A stretch of DNA of 64,000 nt from an uncultured Rhodospirillales bacterium (GTDB lineage Bacteria > Pseudomonadota > Alphaproteobacteria > CAAGCB01 > CAG-977), in NCBI GenBank assembly GCA_902777205.1, contig CACYSU010000003.1, positions 1 through 64,000 on the forward strand, read 5' to 3'. The notes beneath the pieces were generated by a model that ran no database searches, had not been told where the DNA came from, and saw nothing but the letters and a program-made list of their open reading frames with translations. A program made the translations under genes and the position numbers. Every line of letters starts with the position of its first letter. Positions within the stretch are counted from its first letter, which is position 1. This document shows, one piece after another, positions 10,676 to 41,614 of this stretch.

Positions 10676-10763
10676 GCGGATATGGTGGAATGGTAGACAC
10701 AACAGACTTAAAATCTGTTGAGGCTTTGTCCTCGTGCGGGTTCAAGTCCCGCTATCCGCACCA
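10676..10763 (+). tRNA. tRNA-Leu (TAA)
   Basis: An 88-nt class II tRNA: acceptor GCGGATA/TATCCGC, anticodon arm ACAGA-CTTAAAA-TCTGT giving anticodon TAA, a long variable arm and encoded CCA. Its 3' half from 10706 onward is repeated exactly at 16619-16677, so this gene is the integration site of the adjoining element. Confidence 0.96.
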
Positions 10764-10764
10764 A
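10706..10764 (+). repeat. attL, 59-bp direct repeat
   Basis: Runs from the anticodon loop of tRNA-Leu to one base past the CCA end. It is identical to 16619-16677, and the flanking bases differ immediately outside, which fixes the repeat length. Confidence 0.93.
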
Positions 10765-15287: not shown

Positions 15288-16454
15288 TCACCCTTGATTA
15301 TATTTTCGGAAACTCTCAAACGTGTTGACGGTGTTTTGCAACGCTTGAGCGACAGCCGACGTGTCCACCCGCGCATAAACTTGCGTCGCCGAAAGCGTTT
15401 TATGGTTCAGCGTCTTTGACACGACGGACAAATTCACGCCGCCCATACATTCATAGCTTGCGACCGTGCGCCTTAAATCGTGCATTCTTAAATTGTCGAT
15501 ACAGGCTCTTTTTTTAATGCGTTCCCAAACATCCCGCGGTTCTGTCAAATGAGCCGCACGATCAGACGGTTTAGGAAACACCCACGGATTTCCGCCGGAT
15601 TGCAATTTCAATTCTTTCAGCATTAAAACAAGCTGACCGACAAGGGGGACGCGCAACGAAGTCCCGTTCTTCGTTTTCGGAATAAACCAGACGTCGGTTG
15701 TAAAGTCGATATCCTCCCAACGCATGGAAAGAACGTTTCCCCTCCTCTGTCCCGTGAACATCAATGTATAAAAGAATGTTCTGTAAACCGGATCGGATTC
15801 TTCGTCCAATGCCGAAAAAAGCCTTTGGATCTCATCGGGGGCAAGAAAGCGGTCGCGGGCTTCGACATGGAACTTTTTGATTCCGGCGGTCGGGTTGCGT
15901 CCCTCCCACCCCCATTGTATCGCCTTGTTGTAAATATGGCGCAACAAAGTCAAAGCCTGATTTGCCGCAAAAACGCCGCTGCTTTCGCGGACGGCATAAA
16001 ACCACTGCTCTATTTCTCTCATCGTCAGCGAGGAAATCTTTTTGTTCTTCCACCGCGCGAACCGACGCTTGTTAATGTTCAACGTGTTTTTAATATGCCC
16101 CGGCGAAGAATGGCGGTTGGCGTGGCGTTCCATATATTCTTCGAACAATTCGCCGAAAGTCGTTTCTTTGCAAAGCTGTTGCTTTTCATTGTTCGGATTT
16201 ATGCCGTTCCTGATTTTTTCCAATAGCTCGAACGCTTTTTTCCGCGCAAAATCCACGCTGATTTCACTTGCCTTGCCGATTGTGATGCGAACGCAACGCC
16301 CGTCAATCTTCTTCACAAGCATATAGCTTTTGCACCCCGTCTGCCCGATCCGGCAATGCAGATACGAACACTTGGCGTCCGTTATTTCAAACCAGTTCTT
16401 CGTTTCGTCGGGTTTCAACTCCCGAATGAGCTTTTCCGTAAAATTCGCTTTCAT
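15288..16454 (-). CDS. int: P4-type tyrosine recombinase/integrase
   Basis: A 388-residue integrase. It has an N-terminal arm-binding domain (KANFTEKLIRELKPDET), a SAM-like core-binding domain and a C-terminal catalytic domain. Catalytic residues visible are Arg in FTGQRRGNVLSM, the HDLRR box, the His of LNHKTLSATQ and the nucleophile Tyr in VYARVD. ATG 16452-16454 follows GAGAGGAATT; the longer reading to 16499 lacks this. It starts near the right attachment repeat and reads inward, with a palindromic repeat 13 bp upstream. It presumably integrates the element at tRNA-Leu. Confidence 0.95.
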   Translation of the reverse strand: MKANFTEKLIRELKPDETKNWFEITDAKCSYLHCRIGQTGCKSYMLVKKIDGRCVRITIGKASEISVDFARKKAFELLEKIRNGINPNNEKQQLCKETTFGELFEEYMERHANRHSSPGHIKNTLNINKRRFARWKNKKISSLTMREIEQWFYAVRESSGVFAANQALTLLRHIYNKAIQWGWEGRNPTAGIKKFHVEARDRFLAPDEIQRLFSALDEESDPVYRTFFYTLMFTGQRRGNVLSMRWEDIDFTTDVWFIPKTKNGTSLRVPLVGQLVLMLKELKLQSGGNPWVFPKPSDRAAHLTEPRDVWERIKKRACIDNLRMHDLRRTVASYECMGGVNLSVVSKTLNHKTLSATQVYARVDTSAVAQALQNTVNTFESFRKYNQG

Positions 16455-16466
16455 AATTCCTCTCTT

Positions 16467-16487
16467 CCGTTGCAACCTCTTTGCAAC
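16467..16487. repeat. 21-bp palindromic repeat, right copy
   Basis: Identical to 10843-10863 and located 13 bp before the integrase start codon, where binding could also regulate int expression. Confidence 0.6.
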
Positions 16488-16618
16488 TTTTAACATCAAT
16501 CGTGATGGAAAGATTTTAATTACGAAAAACGGAAGAAATCAAATAAGTCTTTGATTTCATTATAGAATATGAATTACAAAGAATGTCCGTAAACAATGGT
16601 GAAAAGTTCAAAGCTTTA

Positions 16619-16677
16619 ACTTAAAATCTGTTGAGGCTTTGTCCTCGTGCGGGTTCAAGTCCCGCTATCCGCACCAA
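16619..16677 (+). repeat. attR, 59-bp direct repeat of tRNA-Leu 3' end
   Basis: An exact copy of 10706-10764. The upstream half of the tRNA is missing here, so this is not a functional tRNA gene but the other end of the integrated element. Confidence 0.93.
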
Positions 16678-16779: not shown

Positions 16780-17781
16780 TTAAAGTTTTTTCAAATACGG
16801 AATCAAAGTTTCATGTGACAATAGCTCAACATCCGAGGCTCGAGCCAATGTTTTGGCTTGGGGTGTATAGTCTTGATTGGATACGACGCATGCGTAGTCG
16901 CAATTATAAAAATTTTTCCCGCCAATAACTTCCTGCACTGCCGCATTTCCGATAGCACTTGAATAGTATTTACATTGTATTGCAATGCGGATTGAACCTT
17001 TTGAGACAATCAAATCAACTCCCTGATCGCCGGTTTTCGGCGTCATGGCACATTCAAAAGCGGAATCCTCGCAAAGTTCACGGACAAACCTTTCATAATC
17101 TTCCCCCGTTTTAACCTGCGACAGATCGAAATCGCCTGTTTCGGCGATTGCTCCCGCCTCCACAAAACAACTAAATAAGAATGTCTTTGATAGAGTTTCA
17201 TCTTTTAAAACATTTTTTGCAAAGTATGCCAAATCCGCATCAAATTTTCTATCATCAAACTGCATTATCCCGTATTCATCGTATGTGGTTGAACGATTGT
17301 ACTTCATATTCAGCGTTGCATAATGTTTCACCATTTCAGATACAACAAACTGTTCTTTTGATTTTTCAGCGTTTTCATAATATTCGTTTACTTCATCAAA
17401 AATTTCATTTACCATCATGTAATCAAATTCATACACTGGACATTCTTCTTCAAGAAAGGTCTGCAACCCCTTTTCCCACCTATCAATATTAAAAGTTTTC
17501 TTCCCGTAAGGAGTTGTCTGAAAACAGTCGTCTTCAAAATCTTTTAAATATTTAAAGTTTTCATGTATTTTGTTTCTAATATCCTCTCTTTCAAGAGTCC
17601 TGCTTTTCTCTCTTTCTTGTTCTTCTTTTTTTTCGAACTCTCTGGCTTTTTCTCTGGCTTTCTCTCTTTCTTGCTCTTCTTTCTTCTCAAATTTTTTCTT
17701 AAAAAAGAAACCGAGACCGAGACCTAAAATGATCCATATTACAGTCCCGCATCCCAAACATCCCAAGCCCCCGTCGTTCAT
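16780..17781 (-). CDS. membrane-anchored Mrr-like restriction endonuclease
   Basis: A 333-residue protein. ATG 17779-17781 has TTTTTGGAG eight bases upstream. Residues 5-22 form one membrane helix (CGTVIWIILGLGLGFFF). A highly charged coiled coil with the repeated unit EKKEEQEREKAREK follows, then a middle domain and a C-terminal Mrr_cat nuclease. The PD-(D/E)xK core is visible as GDQGVDLIV followed by IAIQCKYY, with a conserved QEVIGGKNFYNCDYACVVSN stretch. Mrr-type enzymes cut modified or foreign DNA. The membrane anchor suggests action at the DNA entry site. A structured leader precedes the gene. Confidence 0.82.
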   Translation of the reverse strand: MNDGGLGCLGCGTVIWIILGLGLGFFFKKKFEKKEEQEREKAREKAREFEKKEEQEREKSRTLEREDIRNKIHENFKYLKDFEDDCFQTTPYGKKTFNIDRWEKGLQTFLEEECPVYEFDYMMVNEIFDEVNEYYENAEKSKEQFVVSEMVKHYATLNMKYNRSTTYDEYGIMQFDDRKFDADLAYFAKNVLKDETLSKTFLFSCFVEAGAIAETGDFDLSQVKTGEDYERFVRELCEDSAFECAMTPKTGDQGVDLIVSKGSIRIAIQCKYYSSAIGNAAVQEVIGGKNFYNCDYACVVSNQDYTPQAKTLARASDVELLSHETLIPYLKKL

Positions 17782-17799
17782 CTCACACTCCAAAAATAG

Positions 17800-17980
17800 A
17801 AAGACCGCCTGATAAGGCGGTCGGGAGCTGAAAAAATCGTTGAATAATACAAAGACGACCCTTTGTGCATTACTACACAAAGACTCCCGACCATCATAAA
17901 GATGTCAGGAGAAAGACCCCTTTGCGCAATAGCACAAAGGGTCGCGGTATCCTTGCGGATACCGGTATTATTCACGATAG
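17800..17980 (-). ncRNA. structured leader/attenuator RNA upstream of the Mrr-like gene
   Basis: Read on the minus strand, this stretch forms nested perfect stems: an outer pair 17965-17978 with 17836-17850, CGGTATCC-TTGC-GGATACCG (17945-17964), hairpin A 17915-17943, hairpin B 17861-17882, and CTCCCGACC/GGTCGGGAG (17819-17827 with 17884-17892). The last shares bases with a terminator-like hairpin GACCGCC-TTATCA-GGCGGTC plus T-rich tail (17803-17822), which ends just before the ribosome site of the Mrr-like gene. A 12-nt stretch of hairpin A (17932-17943) also pairs exactly with 17857-17868. Mutually exclusive pairings of this kind recall transcription attenuation and P4/C4 phage immunity RNAs. 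No Rfam match is claimed. Confidence 0.5.
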
Positions 17981-18078
17981 AGTTTTTTCAGGACTCCGCA
18001 CCTTCTCAGGCACTGATGCAAACGGTCTCCCGCCCGCACTTAATCAAAGGATATAAACAGATGGGAAAGAAATCAAGC

Positions 18079-18117
18079 ACGAAGGAGGCTTTCTGTGCAG
18101 AAAGTCTCCTTCGTTTT
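18079..18117 (+). terminator. long terminator-like hairpin
   Basis: ACGAAGGAG and CTCCTTCGT pair around an inner CTTTCT/AGAAAG stem and are followed by TTTT. It could end a plus-strand transcript or be the 5' hairpin of the minus-strand leader. Confidence 0.5.
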
Positions 18118-18452
18118 AAAATTAGAAATTTTCAGAAACCTGAAAATGTTATTTTCGGCAACGGACTAAAAAGCAAAATGCTTTTTTTCCATAGTCTGCT
18201 GCACGAATAATTTTATGACTTCTATAATGTTGATATTCAGTTACGAATATCCACCTAAAGCCATGCGGTGCAGGTCTTTTTGGAAAATCCATAATAGACT
18301 CCCTTTCGTTAGAGTGGAGTCTCTTCGTCGAAAGATCAGATGTCTCTGAACGCTTTCGGGGTTGATTTTTCTGAACGAATCATATAAAAAGATCTTGCTA
18401 TATATCTTGAACATAATTCGTTCAAAAGGGGGGAAAGTGAATCGAAGAGACA
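18118..18452. other. intergenic AT-rich stretch without a supported gene
   Basis: A 71-codon minus frame (18241-18456) has no ribosome site or recognisable domain. A short hairpin AAAAGC-AAAA-TGC with a T run lies near 18170-18188. Promoters for the leader RNA may lie here, but none is clear. Confidence 0.4.
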
Positions 18453-18908: not shown

Positions 18909-19343
18909 ATGATTTTATGTTGCGCCATTTTGCGCGATGATTTGCAATTTGCCGATTCGAACAAAACGTGCGTGTATTGCGGCGCGACCGAAAACCTGAC
19001 CACGGAACACATCATTCCCAAAAGCCTGCGGATCAACGACCGTTGCGCGACGTGCGACAAAATCCAAGGCATTCACAACATCGTTTACGCCTGCAAACAT
19101 TGCAACAGCGCGAAACACGACATGGGACTTTACACGTTTTTCAACAAAATGAACGGCACGGTTTGCGATCCCGACCTGATCCCGCCTTTGCTGGAAAAGA
19201 AATACCTGAAACTGATGTGGTGCTGCCACAAATGCGCGGGAACGCTGGACGCCGCCGACCTGAATGGCGACGGCCGGCTGGACGTGCTGGACATCGACGC
19301 GATCATCGACCGTTCGCGGTCGTCCGCGGATCACAATTCCTGA
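18909..19343 (+). CDS. HNH endonuclease with EF-hand/dockerin-like tail
   Basis: A 144-residue protein. The core TCVYCGATENLTTEHIIPKS and, further on, YACKHCNSAKHDMG give an HNH nuclease with CxxC pairs for structural zinc (C-x-x-C at CVYC and CKHC) and the His of TEHI in the active site. Another CxxC is CATC. The last 25 residues, DLNGDGRLDVLDIDAII, match a single calcium-binding dockerin or EF-hand loop, an unusual addition to an HNH enzyme. ATG 18909 has only a weak ribosome site. It converges with hsdR and their ends overlap by 13 bases. Confidence 0.72.
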   Translation: MILCCAILRDDLQFADSNKTCVYCGATENLTTEHIIPKSLRINDRCATCDKIQGIHNIVYACKHCNSAKHDMGLYTFFNKMNGTVCDPDLIPPLLEKKYLKLMWCCHKCAGTLDAADLNGDGRLDVLDIDAIIDRSRSSADHNS

Positions 19344-22300
19344 TATTTTTTGAAATTTTCCGCCTGTTCGATGACGTTTTGATACACGTCGTTCTGCGGT
19401 TCCGGCGGATAGCCGTTGTCGTCCAGCAAAACGATCAGGTCGGCTTGCAGCGCGGCGCGGATGCTGGCCTTTTTCGACCAATTCGTGTAATGCGTTTTGT
19501 CACCGACAAGGCGTTTGATTTCTTTGGCTAAAAAGATCGTTTTATCTTCCGGATAGGTGAAACCGTATTTCACGGCGCAAGATTTCAAAATGTCGTAAAA
19601 GGCTTTTTCCTCAAAATCAATGCCCAGAGCGGCGAACGAATTTTGCTCCGCCCGCATTTCGTAAATCAAGTCGATCATTTCATCGACGATTTCGTTCAAA
19701 TCGACCTTGTCTGTTCGGTCGTTGTATCGTTCCAAAATGCCGTTCAGCTTTTGCGCGAAATCGACGGCCTTGATTTTATTGACTTCGCAAAAGGCGGAAA
19801 CGGCGTTTTTCAGCAGCCGTTCCAAAATTTGAACGCGGGTGTTCGGCCGTTTTAACGCCCGCACCCGTTCCAAGTATTCTTCGCTGAACAAATCAATCGA
19901 GCATCCTTTTTCGCCAAGTTTGAAAATATCCTCGACATCGCTTGAAATCAGGGCGTCCTCGACCATTTGACGCACGCGGGCGTTCATTTCGGAAACATCG
20001 GGCGCATCACCTTTGGTCGTTTTGAAAACGATCGACCGCACGGCAATGTAAAAATGAATCAAATCCCGCTCCGCCGCCGAAACGTTTTCACTCATCAAGC
20101 ACAGGTTGAACGCGCTTTTCAACCGCTTGACACGCTTCATAAACCGGCGCGTCAGCTCTTCGGTTCGCAAAGCGAATTCCGCCGCGTCGTTCAGGCAATC
20201 CAGCCGCTCCCGTTCCACGCCGTTGAAATAGCGGGAAGCGTCAAACGGATGAAACATTTTGTTCAACAAATCCAGCTCGTCCTTGACGATGGAAACGGCT
20301 TCCCCGTTGTCTTGCGGCGCGCCGCCCTGATTGCCCGCGCCGTACAGGCCGACCGCTTCGGTCAAAGCGCGCTGAATGCCGATGTAATCGACGACCAGCC
20401 CTCTTTCCTTGCCTTCATAAACGCGGTTGACGCGCGAAATCGTTTGGATCAGCGTGTGTTTGCGCACATACTTGTCCAGATACATCGTGTCCAAAGCCGG
20501 CACGTCGAACCCCGTCAGCCACATATCGACGACAATCGCGATTTTAAAGTTGGATTTGACGTTTTTGAATTGCCGCGCCAACTCTTCCTTATCGTCCTTT
20601 TTCAGCATATTGAACAAAGCGGGATCGTCGTCCTTGCCGTATGTCATCACAAGCTTGATCTTTTCCATAGGCTTCAAGTCGCGCCTGTCCGCTTCGGTCA
20701 ACACGGCGTTTTCGTCGGATTCTTTGGCGACCGCCCAGTCGGGGCGCAAAGCGATAACGGCTTTATAAAAAGCGTAAGCGATTTCCCGATCGGCGCAAAC
20801 GAACATTGCTTTGCCGGCAACCGTCGCATTTTCGGCGACGCGGGATTCGTAATGGGCGACAAAGTCCGCCGCTACCGCGCGCAAACGGTCGGGGTGCCCC
20901 AAGACGGACTTGATGGTCGCGGCCTTTTTCTTGCTTTCCTCGATTTGGTATTCATTCGCGCCGGCCTCTTCACATTCCTCGTAATATTTTTCGATCAAGG
21001 CCAGCTTTTCATGATCGGCGAAAACTTTTGCGGCGCGGCCTTCGTACACGATGCGCACCGTAATGCCGTCGTTGACCGCCTGCGTCATCGTATAGGCTTC
21101 GACCACGTCGCCGAACACGTCCAAAGTCGCGTCAACCGGCGTCCCCGTAAAGCCGACGTACGTCGCGTTCGGCAGCGATTGCCGCAAAAAATACGCGAAG
21201 CCGTAACGATCCCGCGCGCCCGTTTCGGACACGGCGATTTTCTTTTCGATATTGACCTGCGAACGGTGCGCTTCGTCGGAAATGACGATGATGTTGCGCC
21301 GGTCGCTTAACAACCCCGTGCTTTCGGCAAATTTCTGAACCGTTGTCAAAAACAGCCCGCCGCTTTCGCGTCCGCGCAGGTTTTGCCCCAACAGCTCGCG
21401 GTTTTCGATTTGAACGATCGCGTCGTCGTTGATGAACTTTTTGGCGTTTAAGAACTGCCCCGATAGCTGGTCGTCCAAGTCGATGCGGTCGGAGATGATC
21501 AAAATCGTCGGATTGTTCAGTTCGGACGAACGCATCAGCTTGCGGCACAAAAACAGCATGGTGAAACTTTTGCCGCACCCCGTCGCGCCGAAATAAGTTC
21601 CGCCTTTGTTATCGCCGATGCGGACGTGCTTTAAAATGTTGTCGTACAGCTTGTTCGTCGCGTAGTATTGCGGATAGCGGCAAACAATTTTCAACGCTTT
21701 GTCCGATTTGTCGGGGAAGTAGATGAAATCGCGCAGCACGTCCAAAAACGTTGCGCGGTTGAACAACCCGTCCAGCATTGTGTAAAGCGTGTCAACGCCG
21801 TCCGCCGCCGCCCTTGTTCCCGTGTGCCGCCAAGCGTAAAAGTTGTCCAATCCGGCGAAAACGGATCCGGCTTTCGTGTTCACGCCGTCGGAAATAACGA
21901 CAAAAGCGTTGTACTTGAACAGTTCGGGAATGTCGCGGCGATAACGCACGGTCAGCTGCGTGAACGCGCTTTCGATGGTGACGTCCTCTTTGACGGGCGT
22001 TTTCAGCTCCATAACGACCAAAGGCAGGCCGTTGACGAACACGATGACATCGGGACGGCGGGTTTCGGACGCGCCTTGAATCGTAAACTGGTTGACGGCT
22101 TTGAAAATGTTTTTGTCGGGCGCGTCATAGTCGATCAAACGGATGAAAACGTCCTTGTCCGCCGGATCGTCGCGACGGAAAACGACACCGTCGGAAATCA
22201 AGCGCATGATGTCGCGGTTGGAATCGTACAGCGCGCTTTCGCCGGCGGAAAAATTGTCCAGAGTTTTAACAAACCGCGCGCACTCCGCTTCGGTCAGTTC

Positions 22301-22456
22301 GGGATAGCGCAATGCCAGATAAGCGGCCAAATCCGCGCGGATCAACACGTCGCGCGCGTCGCGGTCGATGCCGTCGCCCGAAACATAATCGAACCCGTTT
22401 TCCGCCAATCGGTCAACGACGATTTGTTCCAAAGCCGCTTCATCAAACCGCCGCAT
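19331..22456 (-). CDS. hsdR: type I restriction enzyme, R (endonuclease/translocase) subunit
   Basis: A 1041-residue HsdR. The N-terminal nuclease motif appears as RPDVIVFVNGLPLVVMELKTP. The SF2 helicase motor has Walker A GATGCGKSFTM, the DEAHRS box, GFTGTPVD and the late motif region DMWLTGFDVPALDTMYLDK ... QTISRVNR. HsdR joins HsdM and HsdS and translocates then cuts DNA lacking host methylation. It is last in the operon, 14 bases after fic. No frameshift is seen, so the enzyme should be intact. Confidence 0.96.
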   Translation of the reverse strand: MRRFDEAALEQIVVDRLAENGFDYVSGDGIDRDARDVLIRADLAAYLALRYPELTEAECARFVKTLDNFSAGESALYDSNRDIMRLISDGVVFRRDDPADKDVFIRLIDYDAPDKNIFKAVNQFTIQGASETRRPDVIVFVNGLPLVVMELKTPVKEDVTIESAFTQLTVRYRRDIPELFKYNAFVVISDGVNTKAGSVFAGLDNFYAWRHTGTRAAADGVDTLYTMLDGLFNRATFLDVLRDFIYFPDKSDKALKIVCRYPQYYATNKLYDNILKHVRIGDNKGGTYFGATGCGKSFTMLFLCRKLMRSSELNNPTILIISDRIDLDDQLSGQFLNAKKFINDDAIVQIENRELLGQNLRGRESGGLFLTTVQKFAESTGLLSDRRNIIVISDEAHRSQVNIEKKIAVSETGARDRYGFAYFLRQSLPNATYVGFTGTPVDATLDVFGDVVEAYTMTQAVNDGITVRIVYEGRAAKVFADHEKLALIEKYYEECEEAGANEYQIEESKKKAATIKSVLGHPDRLRAVAADFVAHYESRVAENATVAGKAMFVCADREIAYAFYKAVIALRPDWAVAKESDENAVLTEADRRDLKPMEKIKLVMTYGKDDDPALFNMLKKDDKEELARQFKNVKSNFKIAIVVDMWLTGFDVPALDTMYLDKYVRKHTLIQTISRVNRVYEGKERGLVVDYIGIQRALTEAVGLYGAGNQGGAPQDNGEAVSIVKDELDLLNKMFHPFDASRYFNGVERERLDCLNDAAEFALRTEELTRRFMKRVKRLKSAFNLCLMSENVSAAERDLIHFYIAVRSIVFKTTKGDAPDVSEMNARVRQMVEDALISSDVEDIFKLGEKGCSIDLFSEEYLERVRALKRPNTRVQILERLLKNAVSAFCEVNKIKAVDFAQKLNGILERYNDRTDKVDLNEIVDEMIDLIYEMRAEQNSFAALGIDFEEKAFYDILKSCAVKYGFTYPEDKTIFLAKEIKRLVGDKTHYTNWSKKASIRAALQADLIVLLDDNGYPPEPQNDVYQNVIEQAENFKKYQEL

Positions 22457-22470
22457 CGTAAAAAATTCCT

Positions 22471-23601
22471 TTATTTGTTGACGAACCCGTTGTTCGCCAG
22501 TTGTTCGACCACGCCGCGAAACAAACCGGGGTTTGAAAATGAAAACGCATATTTTCTATCCGATTCCGGCGTTTTTTGCAACAACCCTTGCTCAATCATT
22601 TTCTTTACAAGATAAATGATTTGATGATCGGCTTTTTTTCCGGCGAAGACATCCCGCAAATCGCTTGCTTTAAACGAATCATGTTTTAATGAATAACCGA
22701 GGACGGTATATTCATCATCTTTAACAAGGTGATAGTCCTTTGCGTATTGTATCGTCGGGATCAGAATTTTATCGTTTAAATATGCTTTGTCCAGCAACTT
22801 GTTAATTTTGGACATTTCGGCTTCCAATCCCCGCAGCACATAATCGCACCAAAACATCGCGCCCGCTTCCGTCCCTTTGTCCGCTTCCGCCAAAGCCTCA
22901 AAGTATTTGTTTCTGTCGGAACAAAAAACGGCTGTCGGATTCATCAAGGATATTCGGTCGAACCCGTTTTTTTTCAACATGGCATAGGTCAGCAACCGCG
23001 CCACGCGTCCGTTTCCGTTGTCGAAAGGGTGAATCCATAAAAAGCGGTGGTGGGCTACGGCGACTTTCAGCAGACATTCTTGATAGACAACTTTGCGCGC
23101 GATAAAATCCAGCAATTCCGACATATATTCCTGTACTTTCACGCTTTCGGGCGGCGTATGGTCGGCGCGGGTGATTTTAACGTTCGACACGCGGTAAGCT
23201 CCGGGGGACGAAGATCCTTCATTGGTCAAATCGCATGTCAAAATGCTGTGCAGTTCTTTGATAAAACGTTCGGAAATCGGAAAATTCGTATCTGCGGAAA
23301 AACATTCGTCGATATAGGAAATGCACTTTTCAATGTTCTGAATTTCCATAAAAGATTGCGTTCTTTTATCGCCTTCGATTTTGTCTTGGATATAATCGGA
23401 CAAAGTCGTTCTGTTTCCCTCGATACGGGCGGAACCCAAGCTTTCAAAAATTTGAAAGACCGTTTTCAACTGATTGAAAATCAGCAACGGGACATCGCCG
23501 ACTATTTCTTTGTCCCGCATTTTTTCCAAATTGATGATGCTGGCGACAACGGGATCCGTAAAGCTCGGCCGCGGAATTTTCAATTCGATATGATGGAACA
23601 T
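22471..23601 (-). CDS. Fic-family protein with N-terminal inhibitory motif
   Basis: A 376-residue Fic protein. The N-terminal inhibitor signature is SARIEGN (Ser57-Glu61). The Fic core is HPFDNGNGR with His191, followed by VAR. The usual acidic metal ligand in HxFx(D/E)GNGR is Asn195 here, so AMP-transfer may be weakened or altered. The C-terminal third looks like a winged helix (YTVLGYSLKHDSFKASDLRDVFAGKKADHQIIYLV), as in many Fic regulators. It is placed between a small membrane gene and hsdR, and has its own sigma-70-like promoter. Proteins of this type often occur beside type I systems; the target is unknown. Confidence 0.88.
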   Translation of the reverse strand: MFHHIELKIPRPSFTDPVVASIINLEKMRDKEIVGDVPLLIFNQLKTVFQIFESLGSARIEGNRTTLSDYIQDKIEGDKRTQSFMEIQNIEKCISYIDECFSADTNFPISERFIKELHSILTCDLTNEGSSSPGAYRVSNVKITRADHTPPESVKVQEYMSELLDFIARKVVYQECLLKVAVAHHRFLWIHPFDNGNGRVARLLTYAMLKKNGFDRISLMNPTAVFCSDRNKYFEALAEADKGTEAGAMFWCDYVLRGLEAEMSKINKLLDKAYLNDKILIPTIQYAKDYHLVKDDEYTVLGYSLKHDSFKASDLRDVFAGKKADHQIIYLVKKMIEQGLLQKTPESDRKYAFSFSNPGLFRGVVEQLANNGFVNK

Positions 23602-40033: not shown

Positions 40034-41614
40034 ATGGCCCGTTCCGGAGAAGACGATATCGAATTGGAAGCGAACTTTTCCAATAAAGAGGAAGCCGAAA
40101 TACGCACCCGCCTGATCACGCTGCAGGACAAAATCACCGAAGCGAACGTCCCCGTCATCGTGCTGCTGTGCGGGGTCAACGGGTCGGGCAAAAACGCCGC
40201 GCTGGGCATTTTGCGCGACTGGCTGGATCAGCGGCGGCTGGATCTGCACGCCTATGAACGCCGCGACATCCGCAGCGATCCCGTCGAATTCCGCCGCTAT
40301 TGGTGCGACACGCCGCTGAACGGCACGACGGGCATTTTCGTCAGTTCGTGGTATTCCGATCCGCTGGTCAACCACGCGAACGGCAAAATCAACGACGACG
40401 AGCTGTACGAACGGTTGGACGAATGTAACGATTTTGAAAAGATGCTGGCGGATTCCAACGTCATTTTCTGCAAAATCTGGTTTCATAAAAGCAAAAACGA
40501 ACAGCAGGACTTTTTGCGCGCGCTGGACGACGATCCGTATGAAAAATGGCGCATCATGCCCGACGACTGGAAAAACTGCTGCATGGCGGAAAAGTTTGAA
40601 ACGGCGACCAAAAAGCTGATCCGCTACACGGACAAGGATTACGCTCCGTGGTTTGAAATCGGCGACGGCAGCTTTACGGAACGCCTGCGCGTGGCGTTGG
40701 ATGTCCTGTGCACGCGCGTTGAAACGCAGATCGACGCTTTTTTGAAAGCGAAGGAAAAAGAGAAAAAGGCCGGAACGGCCGCCCCCGAAAAGCCCAAAAA
40801 GCCGGATTTCGTCAAATCGCTGGATATGAATGCGTCGCTGTCCAAAGAAGAATACCGCGAACAGTTGCCCTATCTGCGCGCGCGTCTGAACGCGTTGCTG
40901 ACGGAAGTTAAAAAACGCAACAAAAAGGTCGTGCTGGCGTTCGAGGGACCCGACGCGTCGGGCAAAGGCGGCGTGATCAGCCGTCTGGCGTCGTCGATAT
41001 TCGTGCGCGATTGCAACATTTTCCCGATCGCCGCTCCGACGAAGGAAGAGCTGAACCATAATTTCCTGTGGCGGTTTTGGACGCGGCTGACGAACCAGAA
41101 ACTGCTGACCGTGTTCGACCGTACATGGTACGGGCGCGTTTTGGTCGAACGCATCGAACATTTCGCGACGGATCGGGAATGGAAACGCGCCTATGACGAA
41201 ATCAACCGGTTTGAAAAACAGCTGACGGACGGGCGCAACATCGTCGTCAAATTCCTGCTGTATATTTCGGCTGACGAACAGCTGGCGCGGTTCAAAGCGC
41301 GCGAGGAAACGTCCTATAAAAAATGGAAAATCGGCAGCGAAGACTGGCGCAACCGCGAAAAATGGGATCAGTACGACGAAGCGTTCGACGATATGCTGAA
41401 AAAAACGGACACGAAATACGCGCCGTGGTTCGTCGTCCCCGACAACAACAAAAAATACGGCCGCGTTCAGGCGATGAAGCTGTTGTGCGAACATTTGGAA
41501 AAAGTGCTGGATTACGACACGAAAGACGACGTGCCGCCGCCCGTTTCCGCCAAATCCGCCGACAAGCCGAAGAAAAACAAAGACAAGAAGAAAAAAGACA
41601 AAAATGGACTTTGA
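40034..41614 (+). CDS. pap: polyphosphate:AMP phosphotransferase (tandem PPK2)
   Basis: A 526-residue protein with two PPK2 kinase domains. The first (residues 25-240) has a Walker A region LCGVNGSGKNAALGIL and the second (290-490) LAFEGPDASGKGGVIS, each followed by its lid region (YERRDIRSDPVEFRRYW; FDRTWYGRVLVERIE). Tandem class II PPK2 enzymes make ADP from AMP and polyphosphate. The Lys-rich linker and C-terminus are extended. The gene is coupled to ppk1 and overlaps uup by 11 bases. Synthesis and use of polyphosphate are thus encoded side by side. Confidence 0.92.
   Translation: MARSGEDDIELEANFSNKEEAEIRTRLITLQDKITEANVPVIVLLCGVNGSGKNAALGILRDWLDQRRLDLHAYERRDIRSDPVEFRRYWCDTPLNGTTGIFVSSWYSDPLVNHANGKINDDELYERLDECNDFEKMLADSNVIFCKIWFHKSKNEQQDFLRALDDDPYEKWRIMPDDWKNCCMAEKFETATKKLIRYTDKDYAPWFEIGDGSFTERLRVALDVLCTRVETQIDAFLKAKEKEKKAGTAAPEKPKKPDFVKSLDMNASLSKEEYREQLPYLRARLNALLTEVKKRNKKVVLAFEGPDASGKGGVISRLASSIFVRDCNIFPIAAPTKEELNHNFLWRFWTRLTNQKLLTVFDRTWYGRVLVERIEHFATDREWKRAYDEINRFEKQLTDGRNIVVKFLLYISADEQLARFKAREETSYKKWKIGSEDWRNREKWDQYDEAFDDMLKKTDTKYAPWFVVPDNNKKYGRVQAMKLLCEHLEKVLDYDTKDDVPPPVSAKSADKPKKNKDKKKKDKNGL

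Follow-up and report, generated by a model that had tools for sequence, protein, structure and literature searches.

A leader RNA of about 200-250 nt precedes the gene for a Mrr-type restriction nuclease, and we judge it rather likely that this leader is a cis-regulatory, self-targeting attenuator that controls the nuclease by a three-partner switch. The leader belongs to a large family that is not listed in Rfam and that is found across many proteobacteria, ahead of phage-defence and cell-surface genes. The switch reading is directly supported by conservation, by covariation of a pseudoknot, of hairpin P5 and of an antiterminator, by complementarity to the ribosome-binding site (RBS) that is specific to each locus, and by the fixed position before the gene. 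The initial annotation of this DNA had described a leader RNA with mutually exclusive pairings ahead of the nuclease gene, a description that is upheld here; the leader works like P4 CI/C4 control, outside every Rfam family tested, and is more general than was proposed at that stage.

Structure of the leader RNA

In the 64,000-nt window, that is, the whole stretch of DNA analysed here, the leader extends on the minus strand from about 18040 to 17793, and its structure runs to the start codon at 17781 (Table 1). The predicted fold (341 nt) has an energy of -149.9 kcal/mol, whereas 100 shuffled sequences averaged -90.2 (sd 5.5; z -10.8) and none of them folded as well. Five terminator-like hairpins were detected in 17600-18400 versus 0.7 expected, three of them on the minus strand within 17800-17945; a consensus sigma-70 promoter was not detected in this interval. 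All elements of the overlapping stems named in the initial annotation are present on the minus strand, namely GGTCGGGAG (17892-17884) and CTCCCGACC (17827-17819), the terminator-like stem GACCGCC/GGCGGTC (17822-17816 and 17809-17803), which has GACC in common with CTCCCGACC, and GACCCTTTGTGC (17943-17932) with its exact complement GCACAAAGGGTC (17868-17857), a 13-nt perfect inverted repeat (I7). The stems are thus real, but the structured region is bigger than had been delimited, beginning near 18040. The U-tract that follows the terminator hairpin at this locus (TTTCTATTTT) is imperfect.

Across the family, the order of elements from 5' to 3' is P0, P1a, the GAGN-loop-NCTC hairpin, the P2 5' strand, P3 (optional), P4, P5 and P6, followed by the P2 3' strand, the loop-complementary strand, CTCC(C)CGACC, the terminator-like hairpin, the RBS and the gene. 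Directly upstream of the leader lies a near-perfect 17-bp hairpin (ACGAAGGAG..CTCCTTCGT, 18079-18114) that is likely the terminator of the preceding gene.

Table 1. Elements of the leader RNA and the gene that it precedes
Feature	Position	Strand	Basis
P0 hairpin TGCGGGCGG-GAGA-CCGTTTGCA, leader 5' end	18017..18038	minus	Sequence; base-changed equivalent in L004, L005, L007
P1a hairpin GTGCC-TGAGAA-GGTGC	17998..18013	minus	GYGCC/GGYGC stem recurs in relatives with compensatory changes
5' hairpin GAGT-CCTGAAAAA-ACTC	17980..17996	minus	GAGN/NCTC stem in T-A, C-G, G-C and A-T versions
Loop of the 5' hairpin: pseudoknot 5' strand and part of the upstream target copy T1	17980..17996	minus	Swap test, z -16.6, n=57
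P2 5' strand TGAATAATAC, remainder of T1	17965..17974	minus	Partner 17850-17841; pairing kept, sequences wholly different among relatives
P3 hairpin CGGTATCC-GCAA-GGATACCG	17945..17964	minus	Missing from lipoprotein copies
P4 hairpin CCCTTTGTGC-TATT-GCGCAAAGGG	17918..17941	minus	Terminator-like hairpin call; kept in close relatives
P5 hairpin CTCCTGAC...GTCGGGAG; its 3' strand GGTCGGGAG (17892-17884) is the antiterminator 5' strand	17884..17911	minus	P5 pairs kept in 94-100% of 72 sequences
P6 hairpin TCTTTGTG...CACAAAGG	17860..17883	minus	Terminator-like hairpin call; two-sided changes in L004, L006
Antisense (AS) strand GTATTATTCA-ACGA-TTTTTTCAG-CTCC; candidate partners T1 (P2 and pseudoknot) or RBS	17824..17850	minus	Duplex energies; RBS rank
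CTCCCGACC, antiterminator 3' strand, overlapping the terminator 5' arm	17819..17827	minus	Pairing and covariation in relatives
Terminator-like hairpin GACCGCC-TTATCA-GGCGGTC, then TTTCTATTTT	17793..17822	minus	Hairpin call; U-rich tail in 36/54 hairpin-bearing relatives
T2, ribosome-binding site and start codon GGAGTGTGAGATGAA	17777..17791	minus	Complementary to AS strand
Gene for a 333-aa protein with hydrophobic N-terminus and C-terminal Mrr restriction endonuclease domain	16780..17781	minus	PF04471, E=2.2e-22; ZorD/PDC-S02 Mrr-like models

Pseudoknot, antiterminator and competing pairings

The loop of the 5' hairpin and the 3' strand are complementary within loci, not between them: in a swap test on the order set, the duplex energy was -7.12 for own and -2.96 for swapped partners (z -16.6, n=57), and the class set gave z -9.5 (n=22). 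Counted on alignment A3, in which loop length varies between rows, the pseudoknot is 63.8% paired, and 83.4% at slide -2; its support is therefore taken from the swap test, which needs no alignment register.

The antiterminator (GGTCGGGGAG:CTCCCCGACC in relatives) is paired in 94.2% of cells, beating every slid register, and shows 30 two-sided changes versus 5.4 in shuffles, a number that was reached in 0 of 500 shuffles. One column pairs with both P5 and the antiterminator 3' strand, and in six copies C-G-C is changed to T-A-T. Such a joint change with both partners is, at the level of sequence, the signature of two mutually exclusive helices, and it supports a model in which the antiterminator excludes both hairpin P5 and the terminator. 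At the locus itself, the antiterminator and terminator, mutually exclusive in the manner of a transcription attenuator, precede the gene and share the strand 17827-17803. The initial annotation held that the GGTCGGGAG/CTCCCGACC pairing competes with the terminator and looked to homologues for compensatory changes; covariation is indeed found in homologues, for the pseudoknot, P5 and the antiterminator, and backs this competition. The other pair that it singled out, GACCCTTTGTGC/GCACAAAGGGTC, fared less well: the two are exact complements and could pair in all six close homologues, but the changes are one-sided only. As a conserved switch this pair was rejected, with no two-sided change in six relatives and with P6 accounting for the variation.

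The ribosome-binding site as a proposed partner of the antisense strand

The AS strand is complementary to the RBS of the gene on the same transcript, and a second complementary copy (T1) lies upstream. The P4 CI/C4-type logic suspected in the initial annotation is thereby recovered, with one partner of the antisense strand upstream and one downstream, at the RBS. At the locus, the T1:AS duplex has an energy of -25.0 kcal/mol and the AS:RBS duplex -12.5 kcal/mol, the latter match being weaker than that with T1 and confined to the CUCC/pseudoknot part of AS; when this AS was compared with 58 RBSs, its own RBS was among the top three. Own RBSs were likewise favoured over swapped ones in the order set (z -5.9, n=54), and still so when each gene family contributed a single copy and no strand was repeated (z -4.4, n=31; z -8.1 for loci of sRNA-Xcc1, see below), versus control windows in coding regions with z of 0.7, -0.6 and -0.6 in the order and -1.8, -2.0 and -0.4 for sRNA-Xcc1. 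The order-set signal falls to z -2.7 once CUCC is taken out of the AS strand, and in the class set the RBS signal is not significant (z -1.6, n=12).

In family copies, most start codons are located 20-50 nt past the last conserved motif. A U-rich tail follows the hairpin in 36 of the 54 order copies; most of the remaining 18 lie ahead of restriction-modification (R-M) or acyltransferase genes and have a Shine-Dalgarno (SD) sequence directly after the hairpin, suggesting that separate transcriptional and translational versions of the leader exist.

Relationship to sRNA-Xcc1

At the gathering cut-off, no Rfam family matches the locus. Of the other permissive matches (E up to 10), RF_site6, IMES-3, MIR837 and the rest look like chance; sRNA-Xcc1 (RF02221) alone is coherent. 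This RNA occurs in Xanthomonas and in integron cassettes ahead of symE and has so far been regarded as a stand-alone, trans-acting small RNA. The RF02221 model scores the locus at 26.0 bits (E=0.026), below its cut-off of 53 bits, and the best copy from the order at 40.7 bits. The match covers the full model length (1-87) at 17892-17811, which is the 3' half of the leader from the P5 3' strand to CTCCCGACC, and it includes the closing stem GGCCGGGG..CCCCGGCC, backed by covariation in relatives, with an internal hairpin and a terminator-like end. Searching 12 genomes of the order with RF02221 yielded more than 60 further sub-threshold copies; the ones that we looked at belong to other subtypes and share this layout.

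The cut-off is passed by 39 of 398 genomes in a phylum-wide sample, and most of the 30 RF02221 loci inspected (L138-L167) have the same hairpin and P2 strand about 100 nt upstream, pairing with the 3' half of RF02221. In the swap test, sRNA-Xcc1 loci gave z -8.9 for the RBS and z -8.5 for the upstream arm. Their RBS is close to a second copy of the upstream arm in which GGAG replaces the CCCC of the hairpin (L144, L155, L156, L157, L158, L166, L167); L156, for example, has CCGAAAA-CCCCA-CCAAACAG upstream and CCGAAAA-GGAG-CAAACAG-CC-ATG at the gene. RF02221 thus appears to represent the 3' half of one common architecture and its Rfam model to be truncated, and, judged by sequence, the leader under study is a diverged relative of sRNA-Xcc1, not a member by score. 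Like the leader, true RF02221 loci have the upstream hairpin and P2 strand and adjoin a gene, but the RF02221 model lacks the 5' half of the leader, and the genes behind true copies include SymE and phage antirepressor/KilA-N/Rha-type proteins and are not mainly R-M genes.

Distribution of the family and associated genes

BLAST retrieved a second leader copy in the source genome, which belongs to a rumen alphaproteobacterial MAG genus, and further copies in three sister genomes. One of these close relatives (L004) precedes a type III-like methyltransferase gene; L002, L005 and L007 share an orthologous lipoprotein context, with a homologue that contains a PEGA domain, and L006, at a contig end, probably has the same context. 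The P2 arms of close copies are wholly different yet complementary (TGAATAATAC/GTATTATTCA; AAGTGATTAC/GTAATTGCTT). Two short BLAST matches (L016 and L021) proved to be the 3' and 5' ends of a diverged form of the leader, located ahead of other genes. With the locus under study left out, a covariance model (R1) was built from five copies of the diverged form. Applied to 12 genomes of the order, it detected about 70 copies at E values as low as 1e-63; matches below 1e-3 occur in 11 of the 12 genomes, 15 such copies being in the source genome. R1 scores the locus under study at 53.7 bits (E=2.9e-12), along with 71 other copies.

Beyond the order, the leader is present in 25 of 385 alphaproteobacterial genomes sampled, across many families, and BLAST with one copy from this sample returned 387 plasmid records, mostly of Agrobacterium and Rhizobium. 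One relative (L123, 2501-2740) lies directly ahead of the conjugation repressor gene traM on the Agrobacterium plasmid pAt1D1108b. Exact-pattern scans of viral contigs gave no match, and a phage collection gave two, both in unannotated faecal records. At least two further subtypes (GGGCTTCGAAAACCC..TTTTCGAACATCCGCC and GGGGCTTAACAACCTC..GTTGTTAACTCCCAGTC) are represented by L126-L135 in the same genomes, several of the copies preceding other secreted or lipoprotein-like genes. We found no account of this leader family in the literature; the search was confined to open papers, so that the sRNA-Xcc1 literature may already hold part of it.

A downstream gene could be read at approximately 55 loci of the order, and by raw count at these leader loci about 16-18 of the genes are involved in R-M or defence. 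These comprise six EcoRI-type methylases, two type III Mod-like proteins, type IIG-like enzymes, a C5 methylase, a GmrSD-type protein, HmaA and the Mrr nuclease of the locus under study, and most of the other named genes are surface-related (lipoproteins, pilins, glycosyltransferases, acyltransferases and adhesin-like proteins). Of seven EcoRI-type methylase genes in the order, six have the leader, as against one of seven Mrr_cat genes; on the latter count a special association with Mrr was rejected. The initial annotation had remarked on the coupling of the switch to a restriction nuclease; a coupling special to Mrr is not supported, whereas the link to restriction is broader than was envisaged there.

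Proposed mechanism and alternative explanations

Under the proposed mechanism, the 3' strand (AS, GTATTATTCA..TTTTTTCAG-CTCCCGACC) would have three alternative partners. It would pair either with T1 (the 5' hairpin loop and P2 strand) in a long pseudoknotted helix, or with the P5 strand GGTCGGGAG, breaking the terminator, or downstream, inside the terminator hairpin or with the RBS of its own gene (T2, which resembles T1). The nuclease would then be made when AS is kept off the terminator and T2; in the downstream state, termination or masking of the RBS would stop its production. The direction of switching, together with transcription, processing, trans action and the trigger, are the parts of the model that we infer. 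If sRNA-Xcc1 and P4 CI are taken as a guide, termination or processing probably also yields a small RNA from the 3' part, and this RNA may act on its own leader, resulting in self-limiting control with a private specificity for each copy. The model sits less well with the P6-region loops of other subtypes (GUAUGUUCAG, UAAAGG), whose strong conservation hints at a binding site for a ligand or protein, of which the model has no need.

An alternative that we consider unlikely is a riboswitch or protein-sensing leader, in which the pseudoknotted core with P3-P6 would be the binding part, GGTCGGGAG, CTCCCGACC and the terminator an ordinary expression platform, and the RBS complementarity a matter of platform design. 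The compact pseudoknotted core, the conserved loops of many copies (AGCUUUUGGCGUAUGUUCAGA..UUAAAGGUCAAAAGGAUCA), the presence of both terminator-type and SD-type platforms and the regulon-like gene set within one genome all speak for it. However, the loop sequences of the supposed core, conserved in one subtype, are lost both in the subtype of this locus and in the sRNA-Xcc1 relatives while AS/T1/T2 complementarity persists; furthermore, the target genes have no common metabolic theme, and the strands linking core and platform differ per locus, which fits private antisense pairing better than a shared ligand. Still less probable is a stand-alone small RNA of the sRNA-Xcc1 kind that ends at the terminator and acts in trans, its site before the nuclease being incidental or due to co-mobility. 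The fixed distance of the copies from start codons, the leader at six of seven EcoRI-type methylase genes, the match between the RBS of the adjacent gene and the RNA's own strand, and the short gap from terminator to gene, in which a promoter would hardly fit, all argue against it, even though a terminator does lie ahead of the gene, sRNA-Xcc1 is an 88-nt RNA of Xanthomonas with ends mapped by RACE that is regarded as trans-acting (PMC2996969), and clustered copies of it occur in Xylella (PMC12189769).

We give very little credence to a DNA-level element, such as a recombination or attachment site or a mobile palindromic repeat, that involves no RNA regulator. Copies are split by integrative elements (L089/L090 in G000:C1 and L091/L092 in G009), several end at contig breaks, and others reside in islands, plasmids and integron cassettes, as expected for such an element, but throughout the class the pairing is maintained by compensatory changes and G-U pairs, the gene-adjacent orientation and spacing are constant, and complementarity to the RBS would serve nothing in a recombination site.

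The self-targeting attenuator can be placed in a wider frame, which we offer tentatively, at a little under even confidence: an unrecognised RNA superfamily that includes the truncated sRNA-Xcc1, in which each copy would carry a private antisense code of decoy copy, antisense strand and RBS copy, with many copies per genome controlling genes singly, and in which a phage-immunity-like logic would have been domesticated for R-M, other defence and surface genes. Restriction and defence genes need to be expressed without self-harm, and the control known so far is mostly protein-based. If the wider frame is correct, RNA-based control of single genes would be common to defence and surface functions and spread over Alphaproteobacteria, Rhizobiales plasmids and proteobacteria bearing sRNA-Xcc1, and sRNA-Xcc1 would be recast as the 3' half of a self-targeting leader.

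Comparison with known regulatory RNAs

The C4 RNA of P1/P7 is transcribed ahead of its target and is complementary to the ribosome-binding region of the latter. The leader also precedes its target and complements the RBS region, and relatives of both lie upstream of antirepressor genes; it differs in its fold, in which a pseudoknot and P2 enclose several hairpins. Membership in the C4 family, for which the initial annotation had suggested an Rfam search, did not hold: C4 (RF01695) and c4-2 (RF02944) gave no gathering hit in the 64,000-nt window and none to E=10 in 17700-18200. In P4 CI, the regulatory strand is flanked by complementary copies upstream and downstream (seqA/seqB/seqC), and the output is transcription termination (PMC4825925). 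Compared by description, the order of upstream copy, antisense strand and downstream copy on one transcript is the same, but in the leader the downstream copy is the RBS, and the family, with many copies per genome, is directed at host genes for restriction and the cell surface.

The leader of IsrK, from the Salmonella prophage Gifsy-1, ends in a terminator, and translation of its readthrough mRNA depends on alternative leader pairings, the short RNA activating translation in trans via an upstream ORF (PMC4825925). A terminated short RNA and a readthrough mRNA resemble the output proposed for the leader under study; unlike IsrK, the latter has no evident upstream ORF, and the IsrK model (RF01394) did not match the locus at gathering or in the permissive search. 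In attenuators and riboswitch platforms, too, antiterminator and terminator share a strand, and SD-masking variants exist; the deciding strand of the leader, in contrast, has two further matches, in an upstream decoy and in the RBS, and its sequence differs per locus.

Mobile elements and neighbouring features

Two leader halves, L089 (2501-2652) and L090 (2501-2688), at 41224-41375 and 23268-23455 of G000:C1, are about 18 kb apart, and L091 and L092 in G009 are likewise split; a tyrosine integrase adjoins one half of a split leader, and the shared core lies near TCGGGGAGnTTTTGA. Integrative elements thus seem to use the leader RNA gene for attachment, a role in which tRNA and tmRNA genes are also common. 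Four other leaders (L073, L074, L079 and L087) are cut at the identical point CTCCCCGA|TATGGTTTTAAAGCG near contig ends, probably by insertion of another repeat element at one site.

Within the window, a 59-bp perfect direct repeat of the 3' part of tRNA-Leu(TAA), at 10706-10764 and 16619-16677, brackets about 5.9 kb that contain a tyrosine integrase gene (15288-16499). This segment is an integrative element that ends approximately 100 bp from the nuclease gene, which is located outside it. On the other side of the leader, an ORF on the plus strand (18909-19343) encodes an HNH-like zinc-binding N-terminus and a dockerin-like C-terminus (DLNGDGRLDVLDIDAI) and is convergent with a type I hsdR gene on the minus strand (19331-22456).
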